Below, piece after piece: positions 11,087 through 31,858 of a DNA stretch of 36,361 bases. Made by a program: the position numbers and the translations under genes. Under the pieces are notes generated by a model. The model worked only from the letters and a program-made list of their open reading frames with translations. It had not been told where the DNA came from and did not search any database. Source of the stretch: Gammaproteobacteria bacterium (GTDB lineage: Bacteria; Pseudomonadota; Gammaproteobacteria; Eutrophobiales; Eutrophobiaceae); assembly GCA_026709915.1 (NCBI GenBank), contig JAPORZ010000058.1, positions 1-36,361 on the forward strand, written 5' to 3'. Position 1 is the stretch's first letter, and every line of letters starts with the position of its first letter.

Positions 11087-12274
11087 CTACGCCGTCAGGC
11101 GCTGGTCCAGTTCGGCGAGTTGTTGGGCCAGTTGTGAGACCTTTTGGCCTGCATCCTGGGCGAGTTTGCGGTAGGTGTCCACTTTCTTCTGTTCGGCAGG
11201 CGGAATTACTCCGTCGGTTTTCTTGCCTTCGGCCCTGCGCTTGGCGTCTGCATACATGGCCTTGCTGGCCTCATGATTCGTCTGCGCCTGATGATACCGG
11301 GATTCCACCTCATTGTATTCCTGTTGTAACAGCTGCGCTGCCGACGGCTCGGCCTGAGGTGGCGTAGCCTGAGGCGACGCGGCTGTTTGCGGGGGAGTGT
11401 GCGCTGGCGCGGTTGCCGGCGCCGCCTGTTGCGGCAGCAAACTCTGCAGGGCGTTGACGTAGCTCTGCCTGAAGTCGTTCACGCGCTGCAGCACGGCCGT
11501 CCTTGCTTCCTGCAAGTGAAAGTCACCGTTGGGACGGCCCTCCTGTTTCAGGGAATTGACTGTGTAGGTCTCTGCGGGCACCACCGGGGTATCATTCAGG
11601 CGTTCTCGCAGGCGCCGCGCCATGGTATTCAATTCCTTGTCCACGGCGTTGAATTTTTCCGGGCTGACGCCCTCGGGAAATTTGCTGACGCGGCGCTGAC
11701 CACCGTCATTGGCAGGCGCCAGAACATCGACCGCAAATCTCAGTTCCGCCGGATTCAGCGCCGTCATCCGGGCTGACGGCGCGCCATTTTGCACTGCGGC
11801 AATGGCCTCCTGGCGGGCCTGGTTTTGTTTGGCGATCAAGTCCTTCATCGTGTCTTGCAGGCCGACAAAATCCCGCGCCGCGAAGTTCGTTCCCTGTCGC
11901 TCGCGGCGGCTGGTTACCGTCCCGGAAAACGTCTGGCTGAAGTCTGCGTCCAACTGCCCCTGGGCCTGTCGCAGTATGGTGTTGAGCATATTGTGAACGC
12001 TGGTTTCCCTGCTTTGCTGCAGGGCGGATGAGACAGCCTCAAACTTCCCTGCGCCGAACAGGTTGACCAACGCCTTCACCGCACGGCCGGCGAGCGTACC
12101 CTCCCGCCCCGGGGTGGACGCGACCCAGGCCACCAGCTTACCTTTGACGCCGCCGGCGCCCGCGGTCTTGTGCAGCTCACCTTGCTGCCCCACCGTCTGT
12201 CGGAACTTGCCGGCCTCCGCAACGCGGAAAGCATCTATGGCTGCTTGAAAGTGTGAGGTTGACTGAACTCCCAT
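11087..12274 (-). CDS. Hypothetical cysteine-free, helix-rich protein
   Basis: I do not recognise a family. From the ATG at 12274 the product has 395 residues; a TTG at 12325 would add 17 residues but has no ribosome-binding site. The N-terminal third is rich in Ala, Gln and charged residues and looks helical. Residues of about 285-320 form a Pro/Ala/Gln-rich linker (PPQTAASPQATPPQAEPS). The last roughly 70 residues have heptad-like spacing typical of a coiled coil and end QLAELDQRL. No signal peptide or membrane segment is visible, and the 395-residue form contains no cysteine. It lies convergent to the CoA ligase and divergent from hipBA. Such a composition suits a scaffold, filament or secreted effector, but this is speculation. 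Confidence 0.6.
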   Translation of the reverse strand: MGVQSTSHFQAAIDAFRVAEAGKFRQTVGQQGELHKTAGAGGVKGKLVAWVASTPGREGTLAGRAVKALVNLFGAGKFEAVSSALQQSRETSVHNMLNTILRQAQGQLDADFSQTFSGTVTSRRERQGTNFAARDFVGLQDTMKDLIAKQNQARQEAIAAVQNGAPSARMTALNPAELRFAVDVLAPANDGGQRRVSKFPEGVSPEKFNAVDKELNTMARRLRERLNDTPVVPAETYTVNSLKQEGRPNGDFHLQEARTAVLQRVNDFRQSYVNALQSLLPQQAAPATAPAHTPPQTAASPQATPPQAEPSAAQLLQQEYNEVESRYHQAQTNHEASKAMYADAKRRAEGKKTDGVIPPAEQKKVDTYRKLAQDAGQKVSQLAQQLAELDQRLTA

Positions 12275-12325
12275 TGGTCCGCGCCCCGGCGTAATTGCTG
12301 TTAAAGTGCTGCTACTACACCACAA

Positions 12326-12526: not shown

Positions 12527-12862
12527 ATGAGAAATAATCCACAATCTATAGCAGTTAATAAAACGCTAACGCGATTAGGCAGAGATCTCAGCATCGCCCG
12601 TCGTAAACGGCGCATGACCCTTGCCGACCTGGCCGCCAGGATGCGCATGTCGGAAGGGACTGTCAGGCGCCTGGAAAAAGGTGACCCCGGTGTTTCAATT
12701 CAGGCACTGGCCATGGCGTTGCTGGCATTCGGCGAGCTCAGGCGTCTGCACGACTTGCTGGACATCGCCTCAGATGACACCGGCCTGATCATGGACCTTG
12801 AAGCGCTTCCGAAACGCATTCGTCGTTCAAGTAAAAATACGACCGTCAAAAGCACGCCATGA
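12527..12862 (+). CDS. hipB: HipB-like helix-turn-helix antitoxin
   Basis: XRE-family DNA-binding protein of 111 residues. The helix-turn-helix spans about residues 29-60, with MTLADLAARMRMSEGTVRRLE as the core, preceded by a basic stretch (RRKRR). HipB proteins bind their own operator and hold the HipA kinase inactive in a complex. The stop overlaps the hipA start (ATGA at 12859-12862), the usual antitoxin-toxin arrangement with translational coupling. The upstream inverted repeat fits autoregulation. With 111 residues it is somewhat longer than the 88-residue Escherichia coli HipB, with a basic tail at the C-terminus. The product name follows both from the fold and from its hipA partner. 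Confidence 0.85.
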   Translation: MRNNPQSIAVNKTLTRLGRDLSIARRKRRMTLADLAARMRMSEGTVRRLEKGDPGVSIQALAMALLAFGELRRLHDLLDIASDDTGLIMDLEALPKRIRRSSKNTTVKSTP

Positions 12863-14121
12863 ACAACAGGGTAGTTCGCCTTCAGGTTATGCTGGGCAAT
12901 GAGGCCGCCAAGGTGGGTGAACTCGTATTTGAAAAGGAAGGTGAGCGCCAGTTCAGCATGTTTCGCTATGCGCCGCTGTGGCTTGAACGAAAGGACGCCT
13001 TTGCGATTGCCCCGGCCATGCCCTTGCTTGATGCCCCGTTTTTCAGCGCTGGCGTCCAGGATAATGCCGCACTGGCGTTGCCGGATGCAATTGCCGATGC
13101 ATCGCCTGATTCCTGGGGACGCGCCCTGGTAAACGCAACCATGGCGCGCAGGGCGGATGAGATTGATTATCTCATCAGAACCAATGACCTGACCAGAACG
13201 GGGGCGTTACGCTTTCAGGACGAAAACGGTGTCTTCCTGTCAACGGTAAACCCACGAGTGCCGCGTCTTGTTGAGCTGTCGGACCTGCAGCAGCTGGCGC
13301 ATACCTGGGAGACAAATTCGAGCATGGACAAGGCGTTTCTTGATGAATTGCAGGGTTACGTCGGTTCACTGGGGGGGGCGCGACCAAAATCCGGTATGGA
13401 TGATAATGGGACGCTGTCCATCATCAAGTTTACCTCAACCCGTGACCGGGTTCCGGTTGAACGGGCCGAAGCAGCGACCCTGAAACTGGCCGGACTGGTC
13501 GGCATCAACGCCGCCGCGTCTCGACTAGAGCTTGGGAATACAGACTACCCTGTTGCGGTCATTGCCAGGTTTGACCGGAGAGGCCGGGCGCGTATCCCCT
13601 ACATCTCTGCCAGAACGTTCATGGGTCGGGATGCGCCCGAACCGGTTTACTACACCGATATTGTGGACATGATGGTTGCCCACTGCGAGGAGCCCAAAGA
13701 GCAAATGCATGAACTGTACCGTCGGATTCTGTTTTACATTCTGGTTTCCAACAATGACGACCACCTGCAAAACCACGGTTTTCTGTATGCGGGCAACAAT
13801 CGCTGGCAACTCTCACCTGCCTTCGATATCAATCCGCAACCGCTACGCCACCGTTCTCTCAAAACCGGGATCAGTGAACTCAGCGGCAACGAGGCCTCTA
13901 TTGAAGCAGCTCTTGAAGCTGCGCCTTATTTTGACCTGGCACAGGATGCGGCTGTCAAAATGCTCAGCAACATGACTGACGTGATAGCCGGGCGCTGGCG
14001 TGGCTTGTTCAAGGATGCCGGCATGACTGACAGAGACATCAACCATTACAGCCCCGCCTTTGACCATGTAGAGATGCAGACAGCCAGACAGATAACGGGA
14101 ACTTCTGCGAAACTTTTTTAG
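12859..14121 (+). CDS. hipA: HipA-like serine/threonine kinase toxin
   Basis: Toxin kinase of 420 residues, full length for HipA (N-terminal domain about 1-120, then the kinase fold). A glycine-rich loop SLGGARPKSG starts at residue 170, followed by the nucleotide lysine in SIIKF. The catalytic segment is NNDDHLQNHGF (Asp300/Asp301, His302, Asn305) and the metal-binding aspartate is Asp323 in SPAFDINP. HipA of E. coli phosphorylates glutamyl-tRNA synthetase and causes growth arrest; the target here is unknown. A run of eight G (13371-13378) encodes the glycine-rich loop and is a possible slippage site. The gene immediately precedes the bacteriocin-like peptide promoter. Confidence 0.9.
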   Translation: MNNRVVRLQVMLGNEAAKVGELVFEKEGERQFSMFRYAPLWLERKDAFAIAPAMPLLDAPFFSAGVQDNAALALPDAIADASPDSWGRALVNATMARRADEIDYLIRTNDLTRTGALRFQDENGVFLSTVNPRVPRLVELSDLQQLAHTWETNSSMDKAFLDELQGYVGSLGGARPKSGMDDNGTLSIIKFTSTRDRVPVERAEAATLKLAGLVGINAAASRLELGNTDYPVAVIARFDRRGRARIPYISARTFMGRDAPEPVYYTDIVDMMVAHCEEPKEQMHELYRRILFYILVSNNDDHLQNHGFLYAGNNRWQLSPAFDINPQPLRHRSLKTGISELSGNEASIEAALEAAPYFDLAQDAAVKMLSNMTDVIAGRWRGLFKDAGMTDRDINHYSPAFDHVEMQTARQITGTSAKLF

Positions 14122-14136
14122 GGAAAGTTTTTCAGG

Positions 14137-14165
14137 TTGCAACCGCTTGCCGAATATGTTACAAT
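14137..14165 (+). promoter_or_regulatory. Sigma70-like promoter of the double-glycine peptide gene
   Basis: TTGCAA (14137-14142) and TACAAT (14160-14165) are separated by exactly 17 bases. Transcription would start near 14172, leaving a leader of about 30 bases that includes the GGGAGAA ribosome-binding site. It lies just after the hipA stop, so the peptide gene is an independent transcription unit. Confidence 0.65.
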
Positions 14166-14200
14166 CCGCCCCGCAATTCGCTAAAACCTGGGAGAAAATC

Positions 14201-14380
14201 ATGAAAGACAAAACTACGGTAGTTAAGAACGATGTTGCAGAAGAACTGACTGAGGAAGAGGCAAAAGAAATCGCCGGCGGCAGGTCGGAGCCTCCCAGTG
14301 GCCAAGTCCATTCAAATTCGACTCTGGGCAGTAACCACGCGTACTATTCCACTGACGCCCCAGACCGGCCGTCGCGCTAG
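14201..14380 (+). CDS. Double-glycine leader peptide, putative exported bacteriocin/RiPP precursor
   Basis: Peptide of 59 residues. The ATG at 14201 follows a good GGGAGAAAATC ribosome-binding site; the longer frame from 14147 lacks one and would run into the promoter. Residues 1-27 form an acidic leader ending ELTEEEAKEIAGG, matching the double-glycine leaders cut by C39 peptidases. The predicted core (residues 28-59) is hydrophilic, with many Ser, Asn, Pro and His, a YY pair, and no cysteine, so lanthionine or disulfide bridges are impossible. Genes for an NHLM-type exporter with a C39 peptidase follow directly. I infer a bacteriocin-like or signalling peptide exported after cleavage at Gly27. 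No modifying enzyme is adjacent. Function is unproven. Confidence 0.75.
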   Translation: MKDKTTVVKNDVAEELTEEEAKEIAGGRSEPPSGQVHSNSTLGSNHAYYSTDAPDRPSR

Positions 14381-14608
14381 CAAGGGTGCTTTCGGCAGTT
14401 TGAGATACTTTGCTGCACGGGCGCCTCTAATTTTTAGAGGCGCCCGTGTATTGATGTCATCCAGATAGTTTCAGATACTCGTGCAGCATAGTAATATGCT
14501 GCCTTTTCATCATGGGGTTCATCCCGGACCCCGCCTTTGGGCAGCTTGGGTTGTGTCATGCGGCTGCCTTGCGGTTTGGCTACGCGTATAACCCGCCATG
14601 GCACAAGC
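14381..14608. other. Intergenic region between peptide and exporter genes
   Basis: This 228-base gap holds two hairpins: the 15-bp palindrome at 14416-14448, and GCAGCATA/TATGCTGC (14483-14490 with 14495-14502), whose sequence recurs at 36255-36274. No further gene is supported; the open frame running upstream of the fusion protein lacks a ribosome-binding site. Confidence 0.55.
14416..14448. repeat. Perfect 15-bp palindrome (TTAGAGG repeat copy), possible attenuator
   Basis: CACGGGCGCCTCTAA (14416-14430) pairs perfectly with TTAGAGGCGCCCGTG (14434-14448) around a 3-base loop. It lies 36 bases after the peptide stop and before the exporter genes. A stable hairpin here would limit read-through so that the peptide is made in excess of its exporter, a common arrangement in bacteriocin operons. 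It lacks a trailing T run, so factor-independent termination is uncertain. It belongs to the dispersed repeat family. Confidence 0.8.
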
Positions 14609-15856
14609 ATGAAAGACATCCCCCAAGACCAGCAGGTGACGCGCCTTGGCGCTCCCGAGCACCTGGATCGGGCCTTGTATGTCACCACGCCCAAGGGCTG
14701 GTTGGCGTTGCTGACCCTGCTCACTGTGCTGGCAGCGATTATAGCCTGGGCGCTGTTGGGCGAGGTATCCACCTACGTGGAGGCAGAGGGCCTCATCATC
14801 CGCCGCGGCGGCGCCATTGTTGATGTCACCGCACCCGCGTCCGGTACGCTGGCGCGTATCCTGCCGCAACCGGGCGCCGCTGTTGCCCAGGGCGATCCGG
14901 TGGCCGAATTGGTGGACGCGGAGATACTGGAACGTCACGCCGGCGCGCAGACCCTGCAACGGGAATGGGCCGCAGCGCTGCAACAGCGCACAGCCGAGGC
15001 GCGCCGGGAAGGCGTACTGTTAGATCGCAATCTGGCCGCGCGCCGGGCGCGCCTGGACGAGCTTGAACGCTCCGGTCGTGAGTTGCTGGAGACCACACAA
15101 ACGCGCCTGGACAAGGATCGGGCGCTGCTGGCGCGGGGCGTCGCCAACCAGACCCGGGTGGAACGGGGCGAGCAAGCCCTGGATGAGGCGCAACGCAACC
15201 TGACCGACGCCCTGCGCCGGCGTGATGAGATGGAAGCGGCAGACCTGCGCCGCCGCCACACGCTCGCGGCGCGGGCAAGTGAGGCCCGCACAGAACACGC
15301 CGAGGCGCAACGTCAGGTCAATGCCTTGAGCGCAGTCATACAGTCCTGGCGCGTGCTGGCGCCGGCTGCCGGACGGGTCACCGAACTCAAGGCGCAGGTC
15401 GGCGCCAGACTGACGCCGGGCGCGCCGCTACTCAGTCTGGAAACCGGCGCGCCCGACCTCGAAGCGCTGTTCTTTGCGCCACCGGCGGAAGGCAAGCGCA
15501 TTGCCGCGGGCATGACCGCGCTGGTGACGCTGGCCTCGGCGCCGCGCGCGGAATTCGGCTACCTGCTGGGAGAGGTGGAACAGCGCTCCGAGTTTCCCGT
15601 AAGCCTCGACGGCATGATGGCGACGTTGCGCAATGAGCAGCTGGCCCAGGCCTTCAGCCATCACGGCGCGCCCTACCAGGGCCGCATCCGACTGCTGCCG
15701 GACCCCGCCACGGCCAGCGGTTATGCCTGGACCTCGTCGCACGCGGCGCCGTTGCAACTGACGCCGGGCGCCCTGGCCCGGGTTGAAGTACGCGTGGCAA
15801 GTCGCCGTCCGGCGGCATTGCTGATGCCATGGCTCAAGGAGAAACTGGACTTTTGA
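14609..15856 (+). CDS. HlyD-like membrane fusion protein of an NHLM-type peptide exporter
   Basis: Periplasmic adaptor of 415 residues from the ATG at 14609; the longer frame from 14537 would place a non-conserved stretch before the cytoplasmic tail. After about 30 cytoplasmic residues comes one membrane helix (about residues 28-50), then a lipoyl-like half (GLIIRRGGAIVDVTAP). A long Arg/Glu/Ala-rich coiled coil follows (about residues 105-265), then the second lipoyl half and a beta-barrel domain (VLAPAAGRVTELKAQVG). It links the two ABC transporters downstream to the cell envelope. Order and sizes match the three-gene exporter found with NHLP/Nif11-type peptides. The 3' end overlaps the next gene. 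Confidence 0.85.
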   Translation: MKDIPQDQQVTRLGAPEHLDRALYVTTPKGWLALLTLLTVLAAIIAWALLGEVSTYVEAEGLIIRRGGAIVDVTAPASGTLARILPQPGAAVAQGDPVAELVDAEILERHAGAQTLQREWAAALQQRTAEARREGVLLDRNLAARRARLDELERSGRELLETTQTRLDKDRALLARGVANQTRVERGEQALDEAQRNLTDALRRRDEMEAADLRRRHTLAARASEARTEHAEAQRQVNALSAVIQSWRVLAPAAGRVTELKAQVGARLTPGAPLLSLETGAPDLEALFFAPPAEGKRIAAGMTALVTLASAPRAEFGYLLGEVEQRSEFPVSLDGMMATLRNEQLAQAFSHHGAPYQGRIRLLPDPATASGYAWTSSHAAPLQLTPGALARVEVRVASRRPAALLMPWLKEKLDF

Positions 15857-18036
15857 GCAAGTTTTTAACCCGTATCTCTACCAGGCGGCGACGCGCAGTG
15901 CCCACCGTGCTGCAGATGGAAACCACGGAATGCGCGGCCGCCTGCCTGGGGATGATACTGGCCTATTTTGATCGTTACACGCCACTGGAGCTGCTGCGCG
16001 TGCGCTGCGGCGTATCCCGGGACGGCAGCAACGCCGCCAACATGATGCGGGCGGCGCGCGAGTACGGCCTGGAGGCGCGCGGGTTTCGCTGCGCGCGGGA
16101 ACGCCTGACCGATTTTGCCTTGCCCATGGTGGTGTTCTGGGACTTCAACCACTTTGTCACGCTGGAGGGCATCCGCGGCGACAAGGTCTATATCAATGAC
16201 CCGAATGACGGCCGTCACCGTATCTCACTGGCTGAATTTGACGAACACTATTCAGGCGCGTGTTTCTGTTTCGAGCCGGGACCGCAATTCAAACCTGAAC
16301 CCGGGGGTCGGCCCTCGCTGGTGCGCGGGCTGACCCGCTACCTGGGACAGGTCAAACAGCCACTGTTTTTTATCATCCTGGCAACCCTGGGGCTGGCGCT
16401 GCCGGGCGTGGCAACGCCGACGCTGTTGAAAGCCTTTATCGACGATGTGCTGGTGCGGCAACACGGCGACTGGATGCTGCCTCTGCTGTTTGGGCTGTTG
16501 CTGGCCGCAGTCATACAAGCAGCCCTGACCTGGCTGCAACGCACCTTACTGGCGCGACTGGAAACCAAGCTGTCGATCGTGATGACTACGCGCTTTTTCT
16601 GGCACGTGGCCACCCTGCCCACGTTATTTTTCAGTCAACGCTACGCTGGCGATGTGGCCGATCGGGTCACATCCAACGACCGCGTGGCGCGCCTGCTGTC
16701 CGGTGAGCTGGCCGTGAACATGGTGAACCTGTTGACGATGGCGATCTACGCTGGCGTCATGCTCGCTTATGACCTGACCCTGACACTACTCACCTTCATC
16801 GTGGCCACGCTCAATCTGGCCGCGTTGCAACTGGCCGCGCAGGCCCGGGATAATGCCTACCGCAGGTTGTTAAAAGAAACCGGCAAGGTTGCCGGCGCGT
16901 CCATCAACGGCTTGCAGATCATGGAAACGCTCAAGGCCAACGGCGCCGAAGATGATTTTTTCTCGCGTTGGGCCGGCATCCACGCCAATGCCCTCAGTGC
17001 GCAACAACGCCTGGGACTGGTGAACGCACTGGCAAATGTGGTCCCGCCGCTGCTCACCGCAGTGAGCGTGGTTGCCATTCTCGGCGTGGGCGGGCTGCGC
17101 ATCATGGACGGCGCGCTGAGCATCGGCGCGCTGGTGGCGTTCCAAAGTCTGGCCCTGAGTTTCTCGGCGCCGGTGGCAGGGCTGGTCAATTTCGGCGCCA
17201 ACCTGCAACTGATCAGGGGCGATCTGGCGCGCATTGATGACGTGCTGAACTACCGCGCCGATACGCGCGCCGTGCGCGGCCTCAATGCCGAGCAACCGGA
17301 AACGACCGCGCCGGCGCCGCGCGGCGCCATTGAACTGGAGCAGGTGACCTTCGGCTTTAACGTGGCGGAAGCGCCGTTAATTGAGAATTTCAGCCTGTCC
17401 GTGCGCCCCGGCCAGCGCGTGGCGCTGGTGGGCGGTTCCGGCAGCGGCAAGTCAACTATTGCCAAACTGGTGTGCGGGTTGTTGCAACCCTGGTCAGGCG
17501 AAGTGCTTATCGACGGCGAGCGTCTGGAAACGATAGCGCCGCGCCGGTTCGCCGAAATGGTGGCCCATGTCGATCAGGAAATTGTGCTGTTTGAGGGTAG
17601 CGTGCGGGATAACGTAGGTTTATGGGATCGCACCATTGCCGAACGGGACATCGTGCGGGCATTGCGCGACGCCATGCTCCATGATGTGGTCGTGTCCCGA
17701 CCGTTGAAGTACGACGCGCCCGTGGAAGAGAACGGCCGCAACTTCAGCGGCGGCCAGCGCCAGCGCCTGGAACTGGCGCGGGCGCTGGCGCGCAATCCGG
17801 CCATACTGGCGCTGGACGAGGCAACCTCGGCGCTGGACCCGCTCACCGAGATGAGCATTGATGACAATCTGCGCCGGCGCGGCTGCACCTGCCTGATCGT
17901 CGCGCACCGGCTCAGCGCAGTGCGCGACGCAGATGAAATCATCGTACTTGAGCAGGGGCGCATCGTGCAACGCGGCGTGCACGAGGAACTCATTGCTCAG
18001 CCCGGTCTGTACCGGACCCTGGTCAGCTCGGACTGA
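15829..18036 (+). CDS. ABC transporter with N-terminal C39 leader peptidase (NHLM type, subunit 1)
   Basis: Peptidase-containing ABC transporter of 735 residues. The C39 domain (about 1-135) has a complete site: Gln29 and Cys35 in QMETTECAAAC, His108 in FNHFVTL, Asp124 in INDPNDG. Membrane helices follow (about 165-440), then the ATPase with GGSGSGKST, signature FSGGQRQRLELARAL and ILALDEATSALD. It should cut the peptide leader after the double glycine and export the core. Two starts are possible: ATG 15829, overlapping the previous gene by 28 bases, and TTG 15853, which overlaps the preceding stop as TTGA and has AAGGAG upstream. The longer form is given. The downstream gene starts four bases after its stop. 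Confidence 0.88.
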   Translation: MAQGETGLLSKFLTRISTRRRRAVPTVLQMETTECAAACLGMILAYFDRYTPLELLRVRCGVSRDGSNAANMMRAAREYGLEARGFRCARERLTDFALPMVVFWDFNHFVTLEGIRGDKVYINDPNDGRHRISLAEFDEHYSGACFCFEPGPQFKPEPGGRPSLVRGLTRYLGQVKQPLFFIILATLGLALPGVATPTLLKAFIDDVLVRQHGDWMLPLLFGLLLAAVIQAALTWLQRTLLARLETKLSIVMTTRFFWHVATLPTLFFSQRYAGDVADRVTSNDRVARLLSGELAVNMVNLLTMAIYAGVMLAYDLTLTLLTFIVATLNLAALQLAAQARDNAYRRLLKETGKVAGASINGLQIMETLKANGAEDDFFSRWAGIHANALSAQQRLGLVNALANVVPPLLTAVSVVAILGVGGLRIMDGALSIGALVAFQSLALSFSAPVAGLVNFGANLQLIRGDLARIDDVLNYRADTRAVRGLNAEQPETTAPAPRGAIELEQVTFGFNVAEAPLIENFSLSVRPGQRVALVGGSGSGKSTIAKLVCGLLQPWSGEVLIDGERLETIAPRRFAEMVAHVDQEIVLFEGSVRDNVGLWDRTIAERDIVRALRDAMLHDVVVSRPLKYDAPVEENGRNFSGGQRQRLELARALARNPAILALDEATSALDPLTEMSIDDNLRRRGCTCLIVAHRLSAVRDADEIIVLEQGRIVQRGVHEELIAQPGLYRTLVSSD

Positions 18037-18040
18037 ACCC

Positions 18041-20980
18041 ATGGCAACGCCGGATTTTCTTGACCGCTTGCAGGGCGCCCGCCTTAAAACCGGCGCCAAC
18101 CGCCCGTTCCCGTTGGATACTCCTGAGCAAGTATATCTGGTTGAACAAGGTTATCTGGATATCTTCGTGGCCGAGGTGACACAGCAAACAGTCACCGGGC
18201 GGCGGCGGTTTGTGGCGCGCATCAACGCCGGGGAGATGGCCTTCGGCAGCGTCCCGGCGCGCGTGCGCCAACGCAGCTTCGGATTGCTGGCCGTGCCGTC
18301 CTTGAGCGCCGTCATTATAACGGGGCAACGCGCCGGCATTGCCGCCGACGGGGTGGACGTGCATGCGCTGAACTGGATAGATGATTGGGTCTTCCACTTA
18401 GCTGCCGGTCTGGATCAAGACCTGGTCCAGACCGTGCACCCGCGCCTGCTGGAAGCAGATCCGGACGTTCTCTGCGCCGCCGGCGCCGCGCTCAGCGCTC
18501 AGCATAACGACGTAATCTGGGTCAAGGCGGACCAACCCCTGGCCGTGTTCGGGCGCGACGAACTGACCGTGACGCCGGGGCAGCCGTTGCTGCCGCTCAC
18601 CGAACGCACCTGGTGCGTACCGGTTGCCGACGCCGAGGTCACCGGCATGTACACCCCGGAAGCGCTGGCAAGAGGGGAACTCTGGGCCGGGTTCGACCGC
18701 TTCGGGGCGCTGCACCTGGAATACTCGGCGCTGGCCGCGCAAGCAGCCGACATTGATCTGCGCCGGCAACGGCAACGCGCGCATGTAGCGCAACGGCGCG
18801 CGGTGGCGGGCGCCATGCAGGGTTTCAGCCAAATCCTGGGACGCGGCGCGCGCGCCGGCCACGCACAGGAGCAGGCGCAGACCGCGCTGCAAACCGCAAC
18901 GAAACTGGTGGCCGAGCATATCGGCGCAACGTTGGCGATACCGGAACATTTCGAGGACTCCGACCCGGAAAAGACCGTCAACAACCTGGCCCGGCGTAAC
19001 GGCATCAAGACCCGTGAGTTGCAACTGGCGCCGGACTGGTGGCGTCGCGACGGACCCTCTTTTGTCGGCTTTAAGGCTGCTGACGGCGCTGCACCTGAGC
19101 CGCTGGCGATACTCGCCGGCGCCCGCGGCCGCTATCGCGTAACAGACCCGAAAACCGGCGCCAGCATCCCGCTCACGGCCGCCGGCGCCGCGCAGATTAC
19201 CGCGCGCGGCATCATGCTTTACGCACCGCTGCCCGACCGTATCGACGACAACAAGACGATTATCCGCTACGCCCTGCAAGGACGCAGTGAGGATGTGCGC
19301 GCCATGCTGGTGGTGGGCCTGTTGGGCGGATTACTGGCCCTGTTAACGCCGATTCTGACCGGCAGGCTCCTGGCCGATTTTATCCCGCGCGCGGAAACCG
19401 CATTGTGGGTCGCCTCCCTGGGCGCGCTGGCGCTGGCTGCCGTTGGCGGCGCGCTGTTCAGCATTGTGCAAGCGCTGGCGTTGCTGCGCCTGGAGGGGCG
19501 CGTGGATGAGCGCTTGCAGACTGCCGTATGGAACCGGCTGGTGTCCCTACCGCCGCCGTTTTTTCGCGACTATACCGCCGGTGACCTGGCCGATCGCGCC
19601 AACGGCATCAGTGAAGCGCGCCGCCTGCTGGCCGGGGCTGCGGCGCAAACGGCGTTCAGCGGCATCTTCTCTGTGTTCAGTCTGGCGTTGATGTTTTATT
19701 ACAGCTGGAGTCTGGCCCTGGTCACTTGTGCATTGCTGCTGGCGCTGGCCGGCGCCACCTGGTTTTTCTCCATGGGGCAACTGCGGCGCTATCGCACCAT
19801 GTTTCGTTGCCAGGGCGCGCTCGACGGTTTCATATTTCAGTTGCTCAGCGGCCTCGCCAAGCTGCGGGTGGCGCACGCGGAGAATTACGCGCTGGCGCAC
19901 TGGGCGCGGCGCTATGCCGAACAGCAACAGGAAAACCTCGCGGCGCTGCACTGGGGCGCGGGCCAACAGGTGGTCGGCAGCGCCTTCCAACCGCTGGCGC
20001 TGTTGCTGCTGCTGGCCTTCGTGCATTACCAGTTACTCGGCGCCGGCGCGCAGCCGGACTTCAATCTGGCCGATTTTTTATCATTTAACGCCGCCTTCGG
20101 CCAGCTCACCGGCGCCGTGCTCGGCCTGACCAGCGCCGCCAGCGCCCTGGCCGGCGCGCTGCCGCTGCTGGAACGGGTAAAACCGGCGCTGACGGCCGAA
20201 CCTGAGTTGACCACCGACGGCATCGACCCCGGCATCATCAAGGGCAACCTGGAATTTGCCAACGTCAGCTTCCGCTATGAACGGGACGGTCCCAAGGTAA
20301 TAGACAACCTGTCATTTGCCATTAACCAGGGTGACTATGTGGCGTTTGTCGGCCCGTCCGGTTGTGGCAAATCCACCCTCTATCGGTTACTGCTGGGGTT
20401 TGAGCAAGCGGATGCGGGCACTGTTTTCCTGGACGGACACAACCTGTCCAGCCTCAACCTGAACGAGGTGCGACGCAATCTGGGCGTGGTGCTGCAACAT
20501 GGCAGGATCATGGCCGGCAGCGTTTTTGAGAACATCGCCGGCATGTCGCCGTTGAGCCCGAACGACGCCTGGGCGGCGTTGCGCGCGGCGGCGCTGGAAG
20601 ACGATGTGCGCGCCATGCCCATGGACTTGCGCACCATCCTGCCGGAAGACGGCGCCGGGCTTTCCGTGGGGCAGAAACAGCGCCTGCTCATCGCCCGCGC
20701 GCTGGCGCGCAAACCGCGCATTTTATTGTTTGACGAAGCCACCAGCGCGCTGGACAATCGCGCGCAAGCGATTGTGCAGGCCTCGCTCAAACAGCTCAAC
20801 GTCACCCGCATCGTCATTGCCCATCGCCTGAGCTCCATTCGCGACGTTGAAAAGATTTATGTGCTCGACTCAGGCCGCATTGTCGAAAGCGGCGACTACG
20901 ACCAGCTCATGGCCCGGGACGGCGTGTTTGCCAAACTTTCACGCCGTCAGCTTGTCGCGGACACTGGCCCCAACTCTTAA
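18041..20980 (+). CDS. ABC transporter with long N-terminal extension (NHLM type, subunit 2)
   Basis: Transporter of 979 residues from the ATG at 18041, four bases after the previous stop; the longer frame from 17933 overlaps the first transporter's ATPase and is rejected. The first about 415 residues are cytoplasmic. Residues 15-90 resemble a cyclic-nucleotide-binding-like beta barrel (LVEQGYLDIF, RRRFVARINAGEMAFG). No C39 active site is present. Membrane helices span about 420-710, and the ATPase has GPSGCGKST (771-779), signature LSVGQKQRLLIARAL (from 874) and ILLFDEATSALD. The signature has Val where LSGGQ has Gly, unlike its partner. It probably forms a heteromeric exporter with the peptidase transporter. 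NHLM exporters with this two-ATPase layout are known from peptide clusters. Confidence 0.85.
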   Translation: MATPDFLDRLQGARLKTGANRPFPLDTPEQVYLVEQGYLDIFVAEVTQQTVTGRRRFVARINAGEMAFGSVPARVRQRSFGLLAVPSLSAVIITGQRAGIAADGVDVHALNWIDDWVFHLAAGLDQDLVQTVHPRLLEADPDVLCAAGAALSAQHNDVIWVKADQPLAVFGRDELTVTPGQPLLPLTERTWCVPVADAEVTGMYTPEALARGELWAGFDRFGALHLEYSALAAQAADIDLRRQRQRAHVAQRRAVAGAMQGFSQILGRGARAGHAQEQAQTALQTATKLVAEHIGATLAIPEHFEDSDPEKTVNNLARRNGIKTRELQLAPDWWRRDGPSFVGFKAADGAAPEPLAILAGARGRYRVTDPKTGASIPLTAAGAAQITARGIMLYAPLPDRIDDNKTIIRYALQGRSEDVRAMLVVGLLGGLLALLTPILTGRLLADFIPRAETALWVASLGALALAAVGGALFSIVQALALLRLEGRVDERLQTAVWNRLVSLPPPFFRDYTAGDLADRANGISEARRLLAGAAAQTAFSGIFSVFSLALMFYYSWSLALVTCALLLALAGATWFFSMGQLRRYRTMFRCQGALDGFIFQLLSGLAKLRVAHAENYALAHWARRYAEQQQENLAALHWGAGQQVVGSAFQPLALLLLLAFVHYQLLGAGAQPDFNLADFLSFNAAFGQLTGAVLGLTSAASALAGALPLLERVKPALTAEPELTTDGIDPGIIKGNLEFANVSFRYERDGPKVIDNLSFAINQGDYVAFVGPSGCGKSTLYRLLLGFEQADAGTVFLDGHNLSSLNLNEVRRNLGVVLQHGRIMAGSVFENIAGMSPLSPNDAWAALRAAALEDDVRAMPMDLRTILPEDGAGLSVGQKQRLLIARALARKPRILLFDEATSALDNRAQAIVQASLKQLNVTRIVIAHRLSSIRDVEKIYVLDSGRIVESGDYDQLMARDGVFAKLSRRQLVADTGPNS

Positions 20981-22946: not shown

Positions 22947-24212
22947 TTATTCAACAGGCGCGCCCGCCTGGTACCAGCGGGCTATGAGCTCGCGCTCTTC
23001 CTCCGTTATCTGTGTCAGGTTTGCCAGTGGCATGGTCTTGCTGGTGACGGTGCTGGCATGTATGCGTTTCGTCCATTGCCGGATTTGTTCGGGGGTGTCG
23101 AACATTATGCCTCTGGGCGCCACCGGGGCGGTGGGGTGGTTGGGGGTGGCGGAGTGGCAGATGTTACAGCGTTGCGTGATCACCTCCCGCACCTCTGCAA
23201 ACGATACGGGAGCCCGGGCCTGTGTGGTTGCTGCCTGCTGCGGGGCGTCCGCGGATGCAGAGATGGATTCGGGAGCGGGATTGGAGACGGATGTGGGAGT
23301 GGATTCAGAGGCAGATTTGGGGATGGCGATGAACGCGGCCAGACCGAGTAACAGCAGGGCGATGATGACCAAAACGGGCGCCGGGCGGCCCTGGTTTTTC
23401 AGGTTGAAAAAATGCCGGATCAGCGCCCCGGCGCTGAAGATGACAATGAGCAGCAACCAGTTGTATTCGTGTGCGTAAGTGATGGGGTAGTGCGGGCTGA
23501 GCATGACGAACAGCACCGGCAGAGTGAGGTAGTTATTATGCACCGAGCGTTGCTTGCCGCGCAGGCCCGGCAGCGGGTCCGGTTCCTCGCCGCGCTGTTT
23601 GGCGCGCACCAGTTCACGCTGTCCCGGAATGATGACGAAGAACACGTTGGCAACCATAATGGTGCCGAGCATGGCGCCGATCTGGATATAGGCGCCGCGC
23701 CCACTGAACAGGTGGGAGACAAGGTAAACCACGACCGCCAGCAACAGGAACCCGAGCAGCGCGATACGGCTGTCACTCAGGCCGCTCCGGCATAACAGGT
23801 CGTAGCCGATCCAGGACGCCAGCAGCAGGCCGATGCTGGTGGCAATCGCCATGAACGGCGTAATGTCAGCAACAGCTTTATCAATCAGATACACCTCTGC
23901 ATTGAGGTAATATATCAGCACCAGCAGGGCAAACCCGGTAAGCCAGGTGGTGTATGCCTCCCACTTGAACCAGTGCAACGGCTCAGGTAACTCGCCCGGG
24001 GCCACCCGGTACTTCTGCGCATGGTAAAACCCGCCGCCGTGCACCGCCCACAGGTCGCCGGCCACCGCCTCGTCCTCGGGATCCCGGGGCGGCACGTTGA
24101 GGTTCAAGTCGAGCCAGACGAAATAAAACGAAGACCCGATCCAGGCAATCCCCACGATCAGATGCGTCCAGCGCAGCAGCAGGTTCAACCATTCGAGAAT
24201 ATATGCTTCCAT
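22947..24212 (-). CDS. puuD: PuuD-type membrane urate oxidase/hydroxylase with cytochrome c domain
   Basis: Membrane urate-oxidising protein of 421 residues. The N-terminal part (about 1-300) has eight or so membrane helices and conserved segments such as GIAWIGSSFYFVWLD and GGGFYHAQKY. A Ser/Ala/Pro-rich linker (about 305-340) leads to a C-terminal c-type cytochrome domain with heme motif CNICH and a distal methionine candidate in SKTMPLANL. PuuD-type enzymes convert urate to 5-hydroxyisourate and pass electrons to the respiratory chain instead of oxygen. It is the last gene of the xdh operon, starting five bases after xdhC, and uraH in the same operon encodes the next enzyme. The linker is low-complexity and probably variable. 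Confidence 0.92.
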   Translation of the reverse strand: MEAYILEWLNLLLRWTHLIVGIAWIGSSFYFVWLDLNLNVPPRDPEDEAVAGDLWAVHGGGFYHAQKYRVAPGELPEPLHWFKWEAYTTWLTGFALLVLIYYLNAEVYLIDKAVADITPFMAIATSIGLLLASWIGYDLLCRSGLSDSRIALLGFLLLAVVVYLVSHLFSGRGAYIQIGAMLGTIMVANVFFVIIPGQRELVRAKQRGEEPDPLPGLRGKQRSVHNNYLTLPVLFVMLSPHYPITYAHEYNWLLLIVIFSAGALIRHFFNLKNQGRPAPVLVIIALLLLGLAAFIAIPKSASESTPTSVSNPAPESISASADAPQQAATTQARAPVSFAEVREVITQRCNICHSATPNHPTAPVAPRGIMFDTPEQIRQWTKRIHASTVTSKTMPLANLTQITEEERELIARWYQAGAPVE

Positions 24213-24217
24213 CTGTA

Positions 24218-25312
24218 TTAGTCTGCGCTATCTGCGGATTTTATTTCCAGCAACTGGGCGGCGACAGCAATGGCGATGGCGGCGGGGGCTTTTGCTGTTA
24301 TGCCGGGGATACCGATGGGACAGGTCAGGCGTTGCAGTTGTGCATCGCTGAGCCCTTGCTCGCGCAGTCTTTGCAGGAAACGGCGGCGCTTGGTGGCCGA
24401 GCCAATGAGGCCGAGGAAGGCGAGGTCCGCGCGGCGCAGCAGGGCGGCACACAAGTCCTGGTCGAGTTGATGGTCGTGGGTCATCACCAGGCAATACGCC
24501 CGTTCCGGCAGGGTTTCGACTTCTGCCGGCGGGTTTTCGGCACAGCGGGCCGATACGTTGGCCGGCAACTCTGACGGAAACTGTTCAGAACGGCTGTCCA
24601 CCCAGGTGATGCGGCAATCCGGAACGTTGGCCAGGACGTTTACCAGGGCCGTGCCAACATGGCCGGCGCCGAACAGGACGACCTGGAAACCGCTTGGCGC
24701 AATCACTTCAAAAAACAACGCATCGGTGGTGTCCGGCAGGGTTGATTGGGTCTCGACCAAAGAGTGCAATGAGGCTGTTTTCGGCGCTGTTTTTGCGGCT
24801 TTTGCAGCGCCCAGCAGCGCTTGCGCCTGGTCTGCCGCGAGTTCATCCAGTACCTTATCGCCCAGGCTGCCGCTAACGCCGGCTGCAGTAATAATGAGCT
24901 TTCCCGCAGTCTGTAGCCCATCCTCTGCGACCCTGCTGACCAGGATTGCCCGGGCGTTATCCTGTTCAAGCTGCGCCGCCGCTTGCAGCCAGTCGCACGG
25001 CGCCCTGACCACTTCAAAATGCAGGAACACGGCGCCACCGCAGCATTGTTGCAGCATGGGGCCGAGCGGGAACAACTCGAGAAAACGTGGAGCGCCCGCA
25101 GCTGCGGTGTCCTCCAGCCGGGAACGGGCGATACGCACCGCTTCAAATTCAAGATTGCCGCCGCCGATGGTGCCCGTCACCTGCGTCGCCGTGACCAGCA
25201 TACGCGCGCCGGGTTCGCGCGGCGCCGACCCGGCAATGTGCGCGACCGTTACCAGTACACAAGGCCGACCGTCGGCGACCAGCGCCTGTATGGCTGAAAA
25301 ACAATGCTTCAC
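24218..25312 (-). CDS. xdhC: XdhC-like molybdenum cofactor insertion chaperone
   Basis: Maturation factor of 364 residues for xanthine dehydrogenase. XdhC proteins bind the molybdenum cofactor, help add the terminal sulfur ligand and deliver it to the large subunit. Visible are the N-terminal SAPREPGARM and TGTIGGGNLEFEA segments, a CGGAVFLHFE motif, and a C-terminal Rossmann-type domain (VVLFGAGHVGTALVNVL). The C-terminal CPIGIPGI motif is also typical of the family. It starts 16 bases after the xdhB stop and ends five bases before puuD, so it is operonic. Length and motifs are normal. Confidence 0.92.
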   Translation of the reverse strand: MKHCFSAIQALVADGRPCVLVTVAHIAGSAPREPGARMLVTATQVTGTIGGGNLEFEAVRIARSRLEDTAAAGAPRFLELFPLGPMLQQCCGGAVFLHFEVVRAPCDWLQAAAQLEQDNARAILVSRVAEDGLQTAGKLIITAAGVSGSLGDKVLDELAADQAQALLGAAKAAKTAPKTASLHSLVETQSTLPDTTDALFFEVIAPSGFQVVLFGAGHVGTALVNVLANVPDCRITWVDSRSEQFPSELPANVSARCAENPPAEVETLPERAYCLVMTHDHQLDQDLCAALLRRADLAFLGLIGSATKRRRFLQRLREQGLSDAQLQRLTCPIGIPGITAKAPAAIAIAVAAQLLEIKSADSAD

Positions 25313-25328
25313 GGAAAAATTTTACTCG

Positions 25329-27695
25329 TCAGGAAGGAACTACACAATTCAACACCTGCTCCGGGGTCGCTGGCGCATTTAACACCGGCCTTGACTCAAA
25401 GCTGTTAACTGAGCCGTGAACCGGGCCATGCACTGAGGCGATGGCGTCTTTCAGGGCGTGAAAAACCGAAATGCCCAGCATGAAGGGCGGTTCACCCACT
25501 GCCTTGGAACGGTAGATGGTCTGTTCCCGGTTCCTGCCCCAGTCTATCAGTTCCACGTTAAATTCCTGTGGCCAGTCGCTGACGGTGGGGATTTTGTAGG
25601 TGGACGGGGCATGGGTCATTAACCGACCGGCGGCGTCCCACCATAATTCCTCGCCGGTGAGCCAGCCTGCGCCTTGCAGGAAGCCGCCTTCGACCTGCCC
25701 TAAGTCGATAGCCGGGTTCAGTGACGCGCCGGCGTCATGCAGGATATCCACCCGCACTATGCGGTGCTCGCCGGTGAGGGTGTCGAGCAACACTTCAGTG
25801 ACCGCGGCGCCGTAGGCAAAATAGAAAAACGGGCGACCGGTCAGGGTCTCCGGGTCGTAATTGAGCTTGGGCGTGCGGTAATAGCCGGTTGCGGACAGGG
25901 AAATACGCGCCAGGTAAGCCTGTTCGCACAACCCGGCAAAATCGACCAGTTGTTGCCCCACCCGCACCCCGGATGGCGTAAAACGCACCTGTGTACGCGG
26001 CACGCAGTAATGCTCCGCGGCAAACTTTGTCAGGCGACGCCTGATGGCAGCCGCGGCCGCCTTGGCGGCCATGCCGTTCAGGTCACTGCCGGAAGAGGCC
26101 GCCGTGGCGGAGGTGTTCGGCACCTTCCCGGTATTGGCCGCAGTGCACTTGATGCGACCCTGATCGACCTGGAACTCTGCGGCAATGACCTGGGCCACCT
26201 TGGTATATAACCCCTGCCCCATCTCAGTGCCGCCGTGGTTGAGCATGATGCTGCCGTCGCGGTAGATATGCAACAAGGCGCCGGCCTGGTTGTAGAAGGT
26301 GGCGGTAAACGAAATCCCGAACTTCAGCGGGGTCAGCGCGATACCCCGTCTGAGTACCCCGCCCTTGGCATTGTAAGCCTGCACCGTCTGGCGCCGCTCC
26401 CGGTAAGCGGATTTTTGTTCCAGCTCAGCCGTCAGTTCCCGGATGATATTGTCTTCCACCGTCATGTTGTACGGCGTGACATTCCGCTCCCGCTTACCGT
26501 AGAAGTTGATTTTGCGCACATCCAGCGCGTCCTTGTCAAGAAAGCGGGCAATGTCATCCATGACATTCTCAATCCCCATCATCCCCTGGGGGCCGCCGAA
26601 CCCGCGGAAGGCCACGTTGGAGGCCTTGTGGGTCTTGCAACGGTGGGAGATGATGCGCACATGTTCCAGGAAATAGCAGTTGTCGCTGTGGAACATGGCG
26701 CGTACGTTAATGGGGCCGGACAGGTCAGCCGAACGCCCGCAATCCGAAGCCAGTTCCAGGGTCAGGCCGCAGATGCGACCACTGGCGTCGAAGCCGACCT
26801 GGTAGTCAATACGAAAGGCGTGACGTTTGCCGGTGATGGTCATGTCGGCGTCGCGATCGACCCGCAGTTTCACGGCCCGCCCGGTCTTGTGCGCGCCCAC
26901 TGCGGCAATCACCGCGAACAGGGCCGGCGTGGTTTCCTTACCGCCGAAGCCGCCGCCCATACGCCGGCATTCCACCACCACATCCTTGGACGATTTGCCC
27001 AGCGCGTGCGCGACCAGATGTTGCACCTCAGTAGGATGCTGGGTGGAAGCCTGCACCAGCATGGCGCCGTCTTCGCGAGGATGGGCGACGGCGACCTGCC
27101 CTTCCAGGTAGAAGTGGTCCTGGCCGCCGATACGCAGGCGCCCTTGCAGTCGGTGCGGCGCGGCGGCTATGGCCTGATCCGGTTCGCCACGGACCAGGGT
27201 CTGTGACGGCAGCACGAAGGACTGCTGTGCCAGGGCCGTGTCGATATCGAGAATGGCCGGCAATTCTTCATAGTCAATGCGGGCGCGGCGCGCAGCCTGA
27301 CGCGCGTGGAGCACGCTGTCGGCCAGCACTGCGAACACAGACTGTCCCACGTATTCCACCAGACCATCGGCAAACACGGGGTCATCCGCCACCATCGGGC
27401 CGTGGTTATTGTCGCCGGGAATATCGGCGGCGCTGAGCACCTCCACGACGCCCGGCGCGGCGTACACTTCAGCGAGGTCGATATGCCGGATGCGGGCATG
27501 GGCTTTGGCGCTGCAACCGATGGCCGCGTACAACATCCCGCGCGGTTCCGGCTGGTCATCCGTGTACTCGGCAGCCCCGCTAACGTGCAGGCGCGCGCTC
27601 TCATGCGGCAACGCCTGACCGACGCCGGATGTTTTTTCCTTGTCAGTCATGGCAATATCAGTACGCGCGCCCTGGTCACTACTTACGACGCCCAT
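25329..27695 (-). CDS. xdhB: Xanthine dehydrogenase molybdopterin-binding subunit
   Basis: Large catalytic subunit of 788 residues, oxidising hypoxanthine and xanthine to urate. Molybdenum-cofactor segments GGFGGKE and FRGFGGPQG are present, as are GTEMGQGLYTKVAQV and the C-terminal AVGEPPFMLG that holds the catalytic glutamate. The chosen ATG at 27695 overlaps the xdhA 3' end by 13 bases and has GAGG seven bases upstream; an internal ATG at 27650 would shorten it by 15 residues. It pairs with the Fe-S/FAD subunit encoded directly upstream and with XdhC downstream. Nothing is truncated. Confidence 0.94.
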   Translation of the reverse strand: MGVVSSDQGARTDIAMTDKEKTSGVGQALPHESARLHVSGAAEYTDDQPEPRGMLYAAIGCSAKAHARIRHIDLAEVYAAPGVVEVLSAADIPGDNNHGPMVADDPVFADGLVEYVGQSVFAVLADSVLHARQAARRARIDYEELPAILDIDTALAQQSFVLPSQTLVRGEPDQAIAAAPHRLQGRLRIGGQDHFYLEGQVAVAHPREDGAMLVQASTQHPTEVQHLVAHALGKSSKDVVVECRRMGGGFGGKETTPALFAVIAAVGAHKTGRAVKLRVDRDADMTITGKRHAFRIDYQVGFDASGRICGLTLELASDCGRSADLSGPINVRAMFHSDNCYFLEHVRIISHRCKTHKASNVAFRGFGGPQGMMGIENVMDDIARFLDKDALDVRKINFYGKRERNVTPYNMTVEDNIIRELTAELEQKSAYRERRQTVQAYNAKGGVLRRGIALTPLKFGISFTATFYNQAGALLHIYRDGSIMLNHGGTEMGQGLYTKVAQVIAAEFQVDQGRIKCTAANTGKVPNTSATAASSGSDLNGMAAKAAAAAIRRRLTKFAAEHYCVPRTQVRFTPSGVRVGQQLVDFAGLCEQAYLARISLSATGYYRTPKLNYDPETLTGRPFFYFAYGAAVTEVLLDTLTGEHRIVRVDILHDAGASLNPAIDLGQVEGGFLQGAGWLTGEELWWDAAGRLMTHAPSTYKIPTVSDWPQEFNVELIDWGRNREQTIYRSKAVGEPPFMLGISVFHALKDAIASVHGPVHGSVNSFESRPVLNAPATPEQVLNCVVPS

Positions 27696-29188
27696 ATTGA
27701 AGCCTCAACGCCTGTGGTTTCCAGGTAAAACCGTTGCAGCAGGTTACCGGCCACGCACCGGCGGTAGCTGTCTGTGGCGCGCATATCGGTCAACGGTTGG
27801 TAATCCTCTGCCAGCGCCGCAATGGCCGTTGCCAGCGTGGTCTCATTCCAGGGCTGGCCGTGTAACGCCGCTTCGCAGCGCCGGGCCCGTTGCGGCACGG
27901 CCGCCATGCCGCCGTAGCAGATGCGCGCCTCGACCACCTCGTCCTGCTCCAGGCGCACGCAATACGCCCCGCAAACTGCGGAGATGTCCTGGTCGTAACG
28001 CTTGGCGACCTTAAAGGAACGAAAATGCCGGCCGGCGCCGGGGCGGCGCGGCACGCGCACCGCTTGCACAAACTCGGAAGGTTGCAGAGCGGTTTCACGG
28101 TAGCCCAGGTAAAACTCGTCCAGTGGCAGGGTGCGTGTCCACTCGCCGCGCCGCAGCGCCAGTTCTGCGTCCAGGCTGATCAGCGCCGGCATGGAATCGC
28201 CGATGGGCGAGCCATTGGCAATGTTGCCGCACAAGGTGCCGGCGTTGCGGATCGGCGGCGAGGCAAAGCGGCGCATGATTTCAAACAGTTCGGGATAGTG
28301 TTCAGCTAAGGCCGCAAACGCATCGGTAAGGCTGGTTGCGGCGCCGATTTCGATATATTCCCGGGTCGTTTTAATGTAGTCCAGCTCAGCCACGCCGCCC
28401 AGGTAGATAATCATGGGCAAGGTGCGGTGCTGCTTGGTCACCCACAAACCCACATCGGTGCCGCCGGCCAGGATAGTGGCTTGCGGGTGGCGCAACAACA
28501 GTTGCGTCAGTTCAGTCATGCTATGCGGCGCAAAATAGCGTTCTGCGGCGTTTTCCGGGAGGTCTTTTGCGGCCGGCAACTCCAGTGCGCCGTTGGGGCG
28601 CAGTTGCTCAAGTTGTCGTAACAAGTCCGGCTCATCGAGCAGGTCCGGGCCGTAGTCGTGCATTTTTTGCGCAGCGCTGATGATGGGGCGGTAGCCGGTA
28701 CAGCGACACAGGTTGCCGGACAGCGCATCCTCGACCTGTGCCCGCGTGGGGCTGGCATTATGCCGGTACAGGGCAAACAATGACATCACAAAACCGGGCG
28801 TGCAGAAACCGCACTGGGAGGCATGGCAGTCCACCATGGCCTGTTGCGCCGGATGCAGGTCGGCGCTGCTGAGCCGGGCCAGGCTCTCTACGGTGTACAA
28901 GGCCTTGCCGTCCAGGGTCGGGAGGAACTGTATGCAGGAATTGACGGCGCGAAACCGCACTTGCTGTGGCGCCCCCGACTTGCCCGGAACTTCAGCCAGA
29001 ACTACGGTACAGGCGCCGCAATCGCCCTCGGCGCAACCTTCCTTGGAGCCGGTGCGCTGCAATGTTTCCCTGAGGTAATTCAGGATGGTGGTGGTCGGCG
29101 CAACATCCGTCACTTCATGCACGCGCCCATCCAACAAAAAGTGTATCGCCCCGTGTTGTCCTGGTTTCAGGAATGGCTTAACCTGCAT
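27683..29188 (-). CDS. xdhA: Xanthine dehydrogenase small subunit (2Fe-2S/FAD)
   Basis: Electron-transfer subunit of 501 residues. The N-terminal half carries two 2Fe-2S clusters: the plant-type site in GCAEGDCGACTV and the helical-domain site with QCGFCTPGF and NLCRCTGYRP. The FAD-binding domain (about 195-370) has ATILAGGTDVGLWV and the GTLCGNIANGSPIGD segment. Electrons from the molybdenum site of XdhB pass through it to NAD. The product starts with a short extension before the ferredoxin fold. It follows uraH by 19 bases and overlaps xdhB, placing it in one purine-oxidation transcript. Confidence 0.94.
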   Translation of the reverse strand: MQVKPFLKPGQHGAIHFLLDGRVHEVTDVAPTTTILNYLRETLQRTGSKEGCAEGDCGACTVVLAEVPGKSGAPQQVRFRAVNSCIQFLPTLDGKALYTVESLARLSSADLHPAQQAMVDCHASQCGFCTPGFVMSLFALYRHNASPTRAQVEDALSGNLCRCTGYRPIISAAQKMHDYGPDLLDEPDLLRQLEQLRPNGALELPAAKDLPENAAERYFAPHSMTELTQLLLRHPQATILAGGTDVGLWVTKQHRTLPMIIYLGGVAELDYIKTTREYIEIGAATSLTDAFAALAEHYPELFEIMRRFASPPIRNAGTLCGNIANGSPIGDSMPALISLDAELALRRGEWTRTLPLDEFYLGYRETALQPSEFVQAVRVPRRPGAGRHFRSFKVAKRYDQDISAVCGAYCVRLEQDEVVEARICYGGMAAVPQRARRCEAALHGQPWNETTLATAIAALAEDYQPLTDMRATDSYRRCVAGNLLQRFYLETTGVEASIWAS

Positions 29189-31393: not shown

Positions 31394-31448
31394 CAGCTTT
31401 ACCTGGCGTAGCTGGCGGAAAAGAATCATTCAACCGGAACCAATTCTG

Positions 31449-31454
31449 TATAAT
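31449..31454 (+). promoter_or_regulatory. Consensus -10 box upstream of sdhC
   Basis: A perfect TATAAT lies 24 bases before the sdhC ATG. The -35 position is poor (TCATTC at 31426-31431 with a 17-base spacer), so an activator may be needed. It marks the probable start of the sdhCDAB-sdhE transcript. Confidence 0.5.
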
Positions 31455-31477
31455 ACGCCTTTTTCCGTGGGTAACTT

Positions 31478-31858
31478 ATGACTGGTTCGGCAACACCGCT
31501 GTCGCCGTTTTTGCAATATCGGCCACAGCTGACCTCGGTATTGTCCTTCCTGCACCGCATCACCGGCGTGGCGCTCAGCGTTGGCGCGTTGTTGTTGAGC
31601 GCGTGGCTGCTGGCAATCGCCGCGGGCGCGGGGGTGTATGATCTGGTCAACGCGCACGTGACTGCCTGGTACGGGCAAGGTGTCGTCGGCGCGTTCCTGT
31701 TTGCGCTGTATTACCATCTCTGCAACGGCATTCGCCACCTGTGCTGGGACCTGGGCTGGGGGCTGGAGCTCAGCGCCGCCTACCGCAGTGGTTACGCCGT
31801 GATCATCGTGACGTTGGCGCTGACGATTATCACCTTCTGCGTGGGCCGCGCCACGTGA
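31478..31858 (+). CDS. sdhC: Succinate dehydrogenase cytochrome b556 subunit
   Basis: Membrane anchor of 126 residues with three hydrophobic helices. The N-terminal SPFLQYRPQLTSVLSFLHR is the SdhC signature (quinone-side Ser and Arg), and the second helix carries HLCNGIRHLCWDLG with the heme-ligand histidine. It anchors the SdhAB dimer and helps bind heme b and ubiquinone. Its stop overlaps the GTG start of sdhD (GTGA at 31855-31858). First gene of the complex II operon. Confidence 0.93.
   Translation: MTGSATPLSPFLQYRPQLTSVLSFLHRITGVALSVGALLLSAWLLAIAAGAGVYDLVNAHVTAWYGQGVVGAFLFALYYHLCNGIRHLCWDLGWGLELSAAYRSGYAVIIVTLALTIITFCVGRAT

Follow-up and report, generated by a model that had tools for sequence, protein, structure and literature searches.

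Introduction

Several described peptide-export systems resemble the locus analyzed here, which occupies positions 14,137 to 20,980 of a 36,361-nucleotide stretch (contig JAPORZ010000058.1, assembly GCA_026709915.1; hereafter the window) from a gammaproteobacterium of the family Eutrophobiaceae, and which encodes a short double-glycine peptide, a HlyD-like membrane fusion protein and two ATP-binding cassette (ABC) transporters, ABC1 and ABC2. The NHLM exporter was defined by Haft, Basu and Mitchell in 2010, who found its distribution to be wider than that of NHLP precursors and remarked that the cargo of ABC export cassettes includes both modified and unmodified peptides (PMC2887384). The window locus resembles that system in that its three components are adjacent and above cut-offs, with an active-type C39 peptidase in ABC1 only, and differs in that the precursor is of neither NHLP nor Nif11 type and no enzyme of the thiazole/oxazole-modified microcin (TOMM) or LanM kind is adjacent.

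Cyanobacterial group V clusters, described by Wang, Fewer and Sivonen in 2011, combine HlyD, a short-type C39 ABC transporter and an extra peptidase-less ABC transporter with a CAP_ED domain; 16 of their 37 predicted precursors were neither NHLP nor N11P, and LanM-coding clusters form a separate group (PMC3140520). The window locus has the HlyD, the short C39 transporter and the extra ABC transporter, the last with a CAP_ED-like part in its predicted fold, and lacks LanM. In contrast with the window locus and its single precursor, group V clusters average about three precursors each and also encode proteins of two CAP_ED domains (PMC3140520). The Legionella LB2SS and LB3SS systems are likewise gammaproteobacterial and combine a C39 ABC transporter with another ABC transporter in a single locus, but no short-leader precursor is named in the accessible part of that report (PMC6959600). 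NHLM-like exporters without neighboring modification enzymes are already known, and the window locus adds one more case to an established kind of peptide export and is not a new type of system. The initial annotation had described such exporters as usually accompanied by long leaders and modification enzymes; this was too strong, as group V, LB2SS/LB3SS and a locus in another genome of the class (L049, below) differ. Lastly, EbfG1–4 of Synechococcus elongatus are trimmed at Gly-Gly, and the C39 transporter PteB is needed for their efficient secretion (PMC4997328). These too are small peptides with a double-glycine motif, and secreted EbfG1 starts TTYNPPSYPYPSYPK, which is Pro/Tyr/Ser-rich like the exported part of the window peptide; a biofilm role has been shown for EbfG (PMC4997328). 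PteB may belong to a different subfamily from ABC1, and the likeness here is by analogy.

The peptide-export locus

The explanation we favor, at a probability of roughly 0.6, is that this is a self-contained NHLM-type module exporting its own unmodified 32-residue peptide, cut after Gly27 by ABC1. The reading builds on gene content, family membership, intact catalytic residues, a leader motif, a promoter-like site and the recurrence of short double-glycine peptides beside sister exporters. All four genes that had been proposed were confirmed from the open reading frame (ORF) list and the sequence (Table 1), and HlyD, ABC1 and ABC2 all exceeded the curated cut-offs of their NHLM families, so that the exporter does not fall outside that system. 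ABC1 has a Peptidase_C39 domain by Pfam, and its alignment to PCAT1, a transporter of known structure (4ry2), spans the full protein. Its residues Gln29, Cys35, His108 and Asp124 are intact and invariant across a nine-protein alignment, in keeping with the full catalytic site initially ascribed to it.

Table 1. Features of the peptide-export locus, in window coordinates.
Feature	Position	Strand	Details
Sigma-70-like promoter of the peptide gene	14137..14165	+	TTGCAA-17-TACAAT; motif scan
59-aa precursor peptide ORF	14201..14380	+	ATG at 14201, stop ends 14380
Perfect inverted repeat CACGGGCGCCTCTAATTTTTAGAGGCGCCCGTG	14416..14448	.	between peptide gene and HlyD; fold prediction
Second hairpin, then CTTTT, terminator-like	14483..14507	+	sequence scan
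HlyD-like membrane fusion protein, 415 aa	14609..15856	+	TIGR03794, 204 bits (cut-off 156.2)
ABC1, C39 peptidase–permease–ATPase, 735 aa	15829..18036	+	TIGR03796, 993 bits (cut-off 853.3)
ABC2, permease–ATPase with N-terminal part of ~400 residues, 979 aa	18041..20980	+	TIGR03797, 799 bits (cut-off 709.4)

The precursor, MKDKTTVVKNDVAEELTEEEAKEIAGG | RSEPPSGQVHSNSTLGSNHAYYSTDAPDRPSR, consists of an acidic 27-residue leader with terminal Gly-Gly and a 32-residue core free of Cys. The leader ends in LTEEEAKEIAGG, with a hydrophobic residue at -12, an acidic one at -8, hydrophobic residues at -7 and -4 and Gly-Gly at -2/-1, as expected of short, class II-like double-glycine leaders. A scan of short ORFs found no other match to this motif in the window. 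Shuffles of the whole window gave 0.55 matches on average and shuffles of the peptide's own intergenic stretch gave one in 0.23% of cases; a 36-kb stretch can contain such a motif by chance, but a chance match just where the peptide lies would be unusual. A GGGAG ribosome-binding stretch lies directly 5′ of the ATG, and a 1-kb scan (13900–14900; shuffle mean 0.4) gave no promoter-like site other than the one in Table 1.

The second permease–ATPase probably lacks an active peptidase. The likely start of ABC2 lies just past the ABC1 stop, the first ATG of its ORF being at 17933. Its long N-terminal extension, also part of the initial annotation, was examined by structure prediction of residues 1–420 with 17 relatives (mean predicted local distance difference test score 84.5, predicted template modeling score 0.59). 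In the predicted fold, residues 1–123 matched sensor domains of the CAP/CooA/CprK type at middling Z scores of about 8–9, and residues 277–398 had C39 peptidase domains as their best matches (ComA 3k8u, Z 11.9 over 120 residues at 3.2 Å; PCAT1 8vp5, Z 11.4). The extension (18041–19300) is therefore probably a CAP-like barrel followed by an inactive C39-like domain, and a CAP_ED domain has been described earlier for this transporter type in cyanobacteria (PMC3140520). Because the C39-like domain has no Cys at all, ABC2 probably holds substrate or gates the pump and does not cut.

Under the favored reading, a dedicated promoter would drive synthesis of the 59-residue peptide, whose acidic leader would dock on the C39 domain of ABC1, and ABC1 would cut between Gly27 and Arg28 during export. 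The core would leave via the ABC1/ABC2 pair and HlyD as adaptor, and a TolC-type outer-membrane channel, presumably encoded elsewhere, would complete the route. As the core has no Cys and no modifying enzyme is adjacent, it would leave the cell unmodified.

The region between the peptide gene and HlyD is predicted to fold (z = -5.2). Its perfect palindrome occurs once in the window but gave 63 matches, in about 40 places and many of them more than 90% identical, in the 2.6-Mb genome, on contigs C178, C41, C246, C172 and others. It is a dispersed element of the whole genome, and the idea of a locus-specific regulator was dropped since the same palindrome is found throughout; at this locus it may act as a terminator, an attenuator or an mRNA end.

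Related loci and leader types

In a genome of the same genus (G005; locus L038, JAPOQU010000060.1, APA_bin_93) the gene order is the same as in the window, with a double-glycine peptide of MSEQEQTVPAEEQAKSEAATRIEDTEAEAIVGG plus a 32-residue core upstream of HlyD, ABC1 and ABC2. The HlyD proteins are 62% identical, an alignment that backs the likely HlyD start, and the ABC1 proteins 71%; the 28-nt overlap of the HlyD and ABC1 genes is shared as well. The contig end just 5′ of the G005 peptide (L038:1-120) consists of head-to-tail copies of GCAGGCAGTTGCCGTA. The bin codes APA and RHO of the MAGs may point to an origin in sponges, of which their records make no mention. An acidobacterial metagenome-assembled genome (MAG), L054, encodes MSDETATSSNATAGGLDPLNDDEATTIVGG plus 33 residues about 160 nt 3′ of ABC2, with AGGAGG before the ATG. 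As in the window, the leaders of both peptides are short and acidic. The cores of the window, G005 and L054 are 32–33 residues long, hydrophilic and Cys-free, with net charges of 0, -5 and -6 respectively. Another genome, G587, has a short-leader double-glycine peptide with two Cys after ABC2 at one exporter (L096); at its second exporter (L097) no double-glycine peptide was found upstream of HlyD and the downstream side is off the contig.

An ABC1 tree united these exporters and those of three Gemmatimonadota MAGs (L051–L053), eight in all, at 100/100; the window and G005 formed a pair (98/94), to which the Gemmatimonadota were sister (100/98). Despite this placement, the Gemmatimonadota loci differ in that ABC2 is followed by a 104-residue precursor with a single core Cys, next to which lies an uncharacterized protein of about 390 residues; the copy scanned, from L053, has a long NHLP leader (TIGR03793, 64 bits). 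Short leaders recur in the exporter clade but are not fixed there. It had been suggested that the locus may define a subtype: the recurrence of short double-glycine peptides is in line with this, while the long NHLP leader of the closest relatives after G005 is not. Parsimony suggests that short leaders are ancestral and the NHLP leader a later switch, on a small sample in which L097 is uninformative. The presence of two leader types in one clade suggests that the C39 domain reads little beyond the last dozen residues before Gly-Gly, and such natural pairs of leader and exporter make leader recognition by NHLM peptidases testable. The locus further suggests that this exporter family, under a name that steers annotators to modified peptides only, is likely to carry unmodified ones as well.

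The module is patchy, since a HlyD of TIGR03794 was present in only 2 of 53 Eutrophobiaceae genomes and in 12 of 369 genomes sampled from the class. In a plasmid collection HlyD had matches only at 33% identity.

Leaders and cores were shuffled separately to assess similarity (12 tests, P values uncorrected). Leader similarity exceeded shuffles for the window and L054 (P=0.0005) and for G005 and L054 (P=0.0025), and core similarity did so for L054 and L096 (P=0.001) and marginally for G005 and L054 (P=0.04). In NHLP peptides, as reported by Haft and colleagues, the leader is conserved and the core hypervariable (PMC2887384). The pattern in these alignments fits such an arrangement, and the window core may also be little constrained. 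A much broader and more speculative proposal, which we would not expect to hold in full, is a cross-phylum NHLM branch, in Gammaproteobacteria, Acidobacteriota and relatives, that has abandoned the chemistry of ribosomally synthesized and post-translationally modified peptides (RiPPs); it would secrete unmodified, Cys-free, hydrophilic peptides of 32–33 residues by a conserved short acidic leader, would have switched to the NHLP leader in Gemmatimonadota, and its peptides would form a new class of signal or matrix molecules.

Two further loci with other NHLM exporters were seen. In another genome of the class, five short double-glycine peptides with the leader MKFTNISENELKTISGG lie downstream of a distant NHLM exporter (L049:13686-15000); one peptide scanned matched TIGR01847, and no modification enzyme was evident. 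At L047, two divergent peptides (1291-1455 on the minus strand and 1657-1797 on the plus strand) near an NHLM exporter are nearly all double-glycine leader, ending GGEAG and GGAEAG, and are possibly scaffold peptides.

Alternative explanations

Several results weigh against a self-contained module for an unmodified peptide. No curated library recognizes the precursor: the 59-residue peptide had no Pfam or PDB match and a weak PHROG match (E 0.048), and the 77-residue ORF that contains it had no NCBIfam match, including to the NHLP and Nif11 leader models TIGR03793 and TIGR03798, other than a plantaricin match below cut-off (18.4 bits; cut-off 29). As sole query the peptide found only itself in its own genome and chance-level matches in 95 related genomes. 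Leader similarity between the window and G005 was not significant (P=0.15), and the window core was not significantly like any other core, so that the exported part may be under little constraint. The genome is a draft of 258 contigs, 95% complete, and modifying enzymes may lie outside the searched families or act in trans.

The strongest of the alternatives, itself unlikely, is that the peptide is a microcin or class II bacteriocin, an unmodified toxin against competitors from which an unrecognized gene protects the producer. Its leader fits the class II bacteriocin double-glycine consensus, the exporter families carry bacteriocin names, and the sub-threshold plantaricin match points the same way; but the core is strongly hydrophilic (grand average of hydropathy -1.44) as well as uncharged on balance and without Cys, the sister cores are at net -5 to -6, and no obvious immunity ORF is present beside the peptide among the ORFs listed between 14121 and 21064. 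By analogy with EbfG we lean slightly toward a hydrophilic signaling, surface or matrix peptide over a pore-forming bacteriocin, and this is the least certain step of our interpretation.

The peptide could instead be a RiPP modified in trans and then exported here, which appears distinctly improbable. None of the window's larger ORFs belongs to a RiPP-modifying family by Pfam (YcaO, LanM, radical SAM), two having no match at all, in agreement with the absence of an adjacent enzyme noted initially. The lanthipeptide route is not indicated by a whole-genome search for LANC-like proteins, which had no match; a search for DUF4135 was also negative, but its control matched nowhere either and it carries little weight. 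Elsewhere in the genome, contig C89 (L009) encodes a SagD/YcaO-leader-binding fusion, a methyltransferase-like protein and the genome's second NHLM ABC pair, and contig C180 (L114) has the only NHLP precursor found in the genome (71.9 bits), ending GRCCC. The end of C89 reappears, as its reverse complement, in the first 55 bases of C180, and the two contigs are therefore probably one azole-peptide (NHLP/YcaO) cluster, which also encodes a fatty-acid-desaturase-like protein. A SagD-type YcaO of this kind, the methyltransferase-like protein and the nine Ser/Thr of the window core would all suit modification in trans. Yet a precursor and an ABC pair are both present within that cluster, for which reason the window exporter looks like a second, dedicated pump; moreover the window leader is not of NHLP type and the same-genus and acidobacterial peptides, like the window peptide, have no Cys. 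The initial annotation had left the peptide as either unmodified or remotely modified; the first is favored and the second is weakly disfavored, as the sole modification cluster found is self-sufficient in precursor and exporter and the core is Cys-free. Equally improbable is that the small ORF does not encode the exporter's substrate, which would be a different peptide, for instance the NHLP one on C180: outside the genus, the exporters closest to this one do adjoin NHLP precursors, and the window and G005 cores are dissimilar, but the 59-residue ORF has a promoter-like site, ribosome-binding stretch and motif, a double-glycine ORF holds the same position in G005, and the C180 precursor has an exporter within its own cluster.

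An uncharacterized family of proteins of about 360 residues has members next to NHLP precursors both in this genome (L114:3318-4394) and in a Gemmatimonadota genome (L102:1093-2181), the two sharing 31% identity (E 9e-33). Neither matches Pfam and the Gemmatimonadota copy has no NCBIfam match; the family is a candidate new RiPP-associated protein.

Window neighborhood

The two larger window ORFs without Pfam matches are 11087-12325(-) and 31430-31927(-); the former encodes a Gln/Ala-rich protein of 412 residues that has no PHROG match either. Other ORFs matched TonB receptor, short-chain dehydrogenase/reductase, enoyl-CoA hydratase, acyl-CoA dehydrogenase, flavin mononucleotide (FMN) oxidoreductase, thiolase, AMP-ligase, HipA and succinate dehydrogenase subunit families, among others. 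Directly upstream of the peptide promoter, at 12527-14121, are genes for a helix-turn-helix protein and a HipA-like protein, a pair resembling a toxin-antitoxin system. On the 3′ side of the exporter an inosine monophosphate dehydrogenase-like gene begins at 21064, and genes of purine breakdown follow at 22947-29188, encoding a membrane protein with a urate oxidase N-terminal domain, XdhC and two xanthine dehydrogenase subunits.

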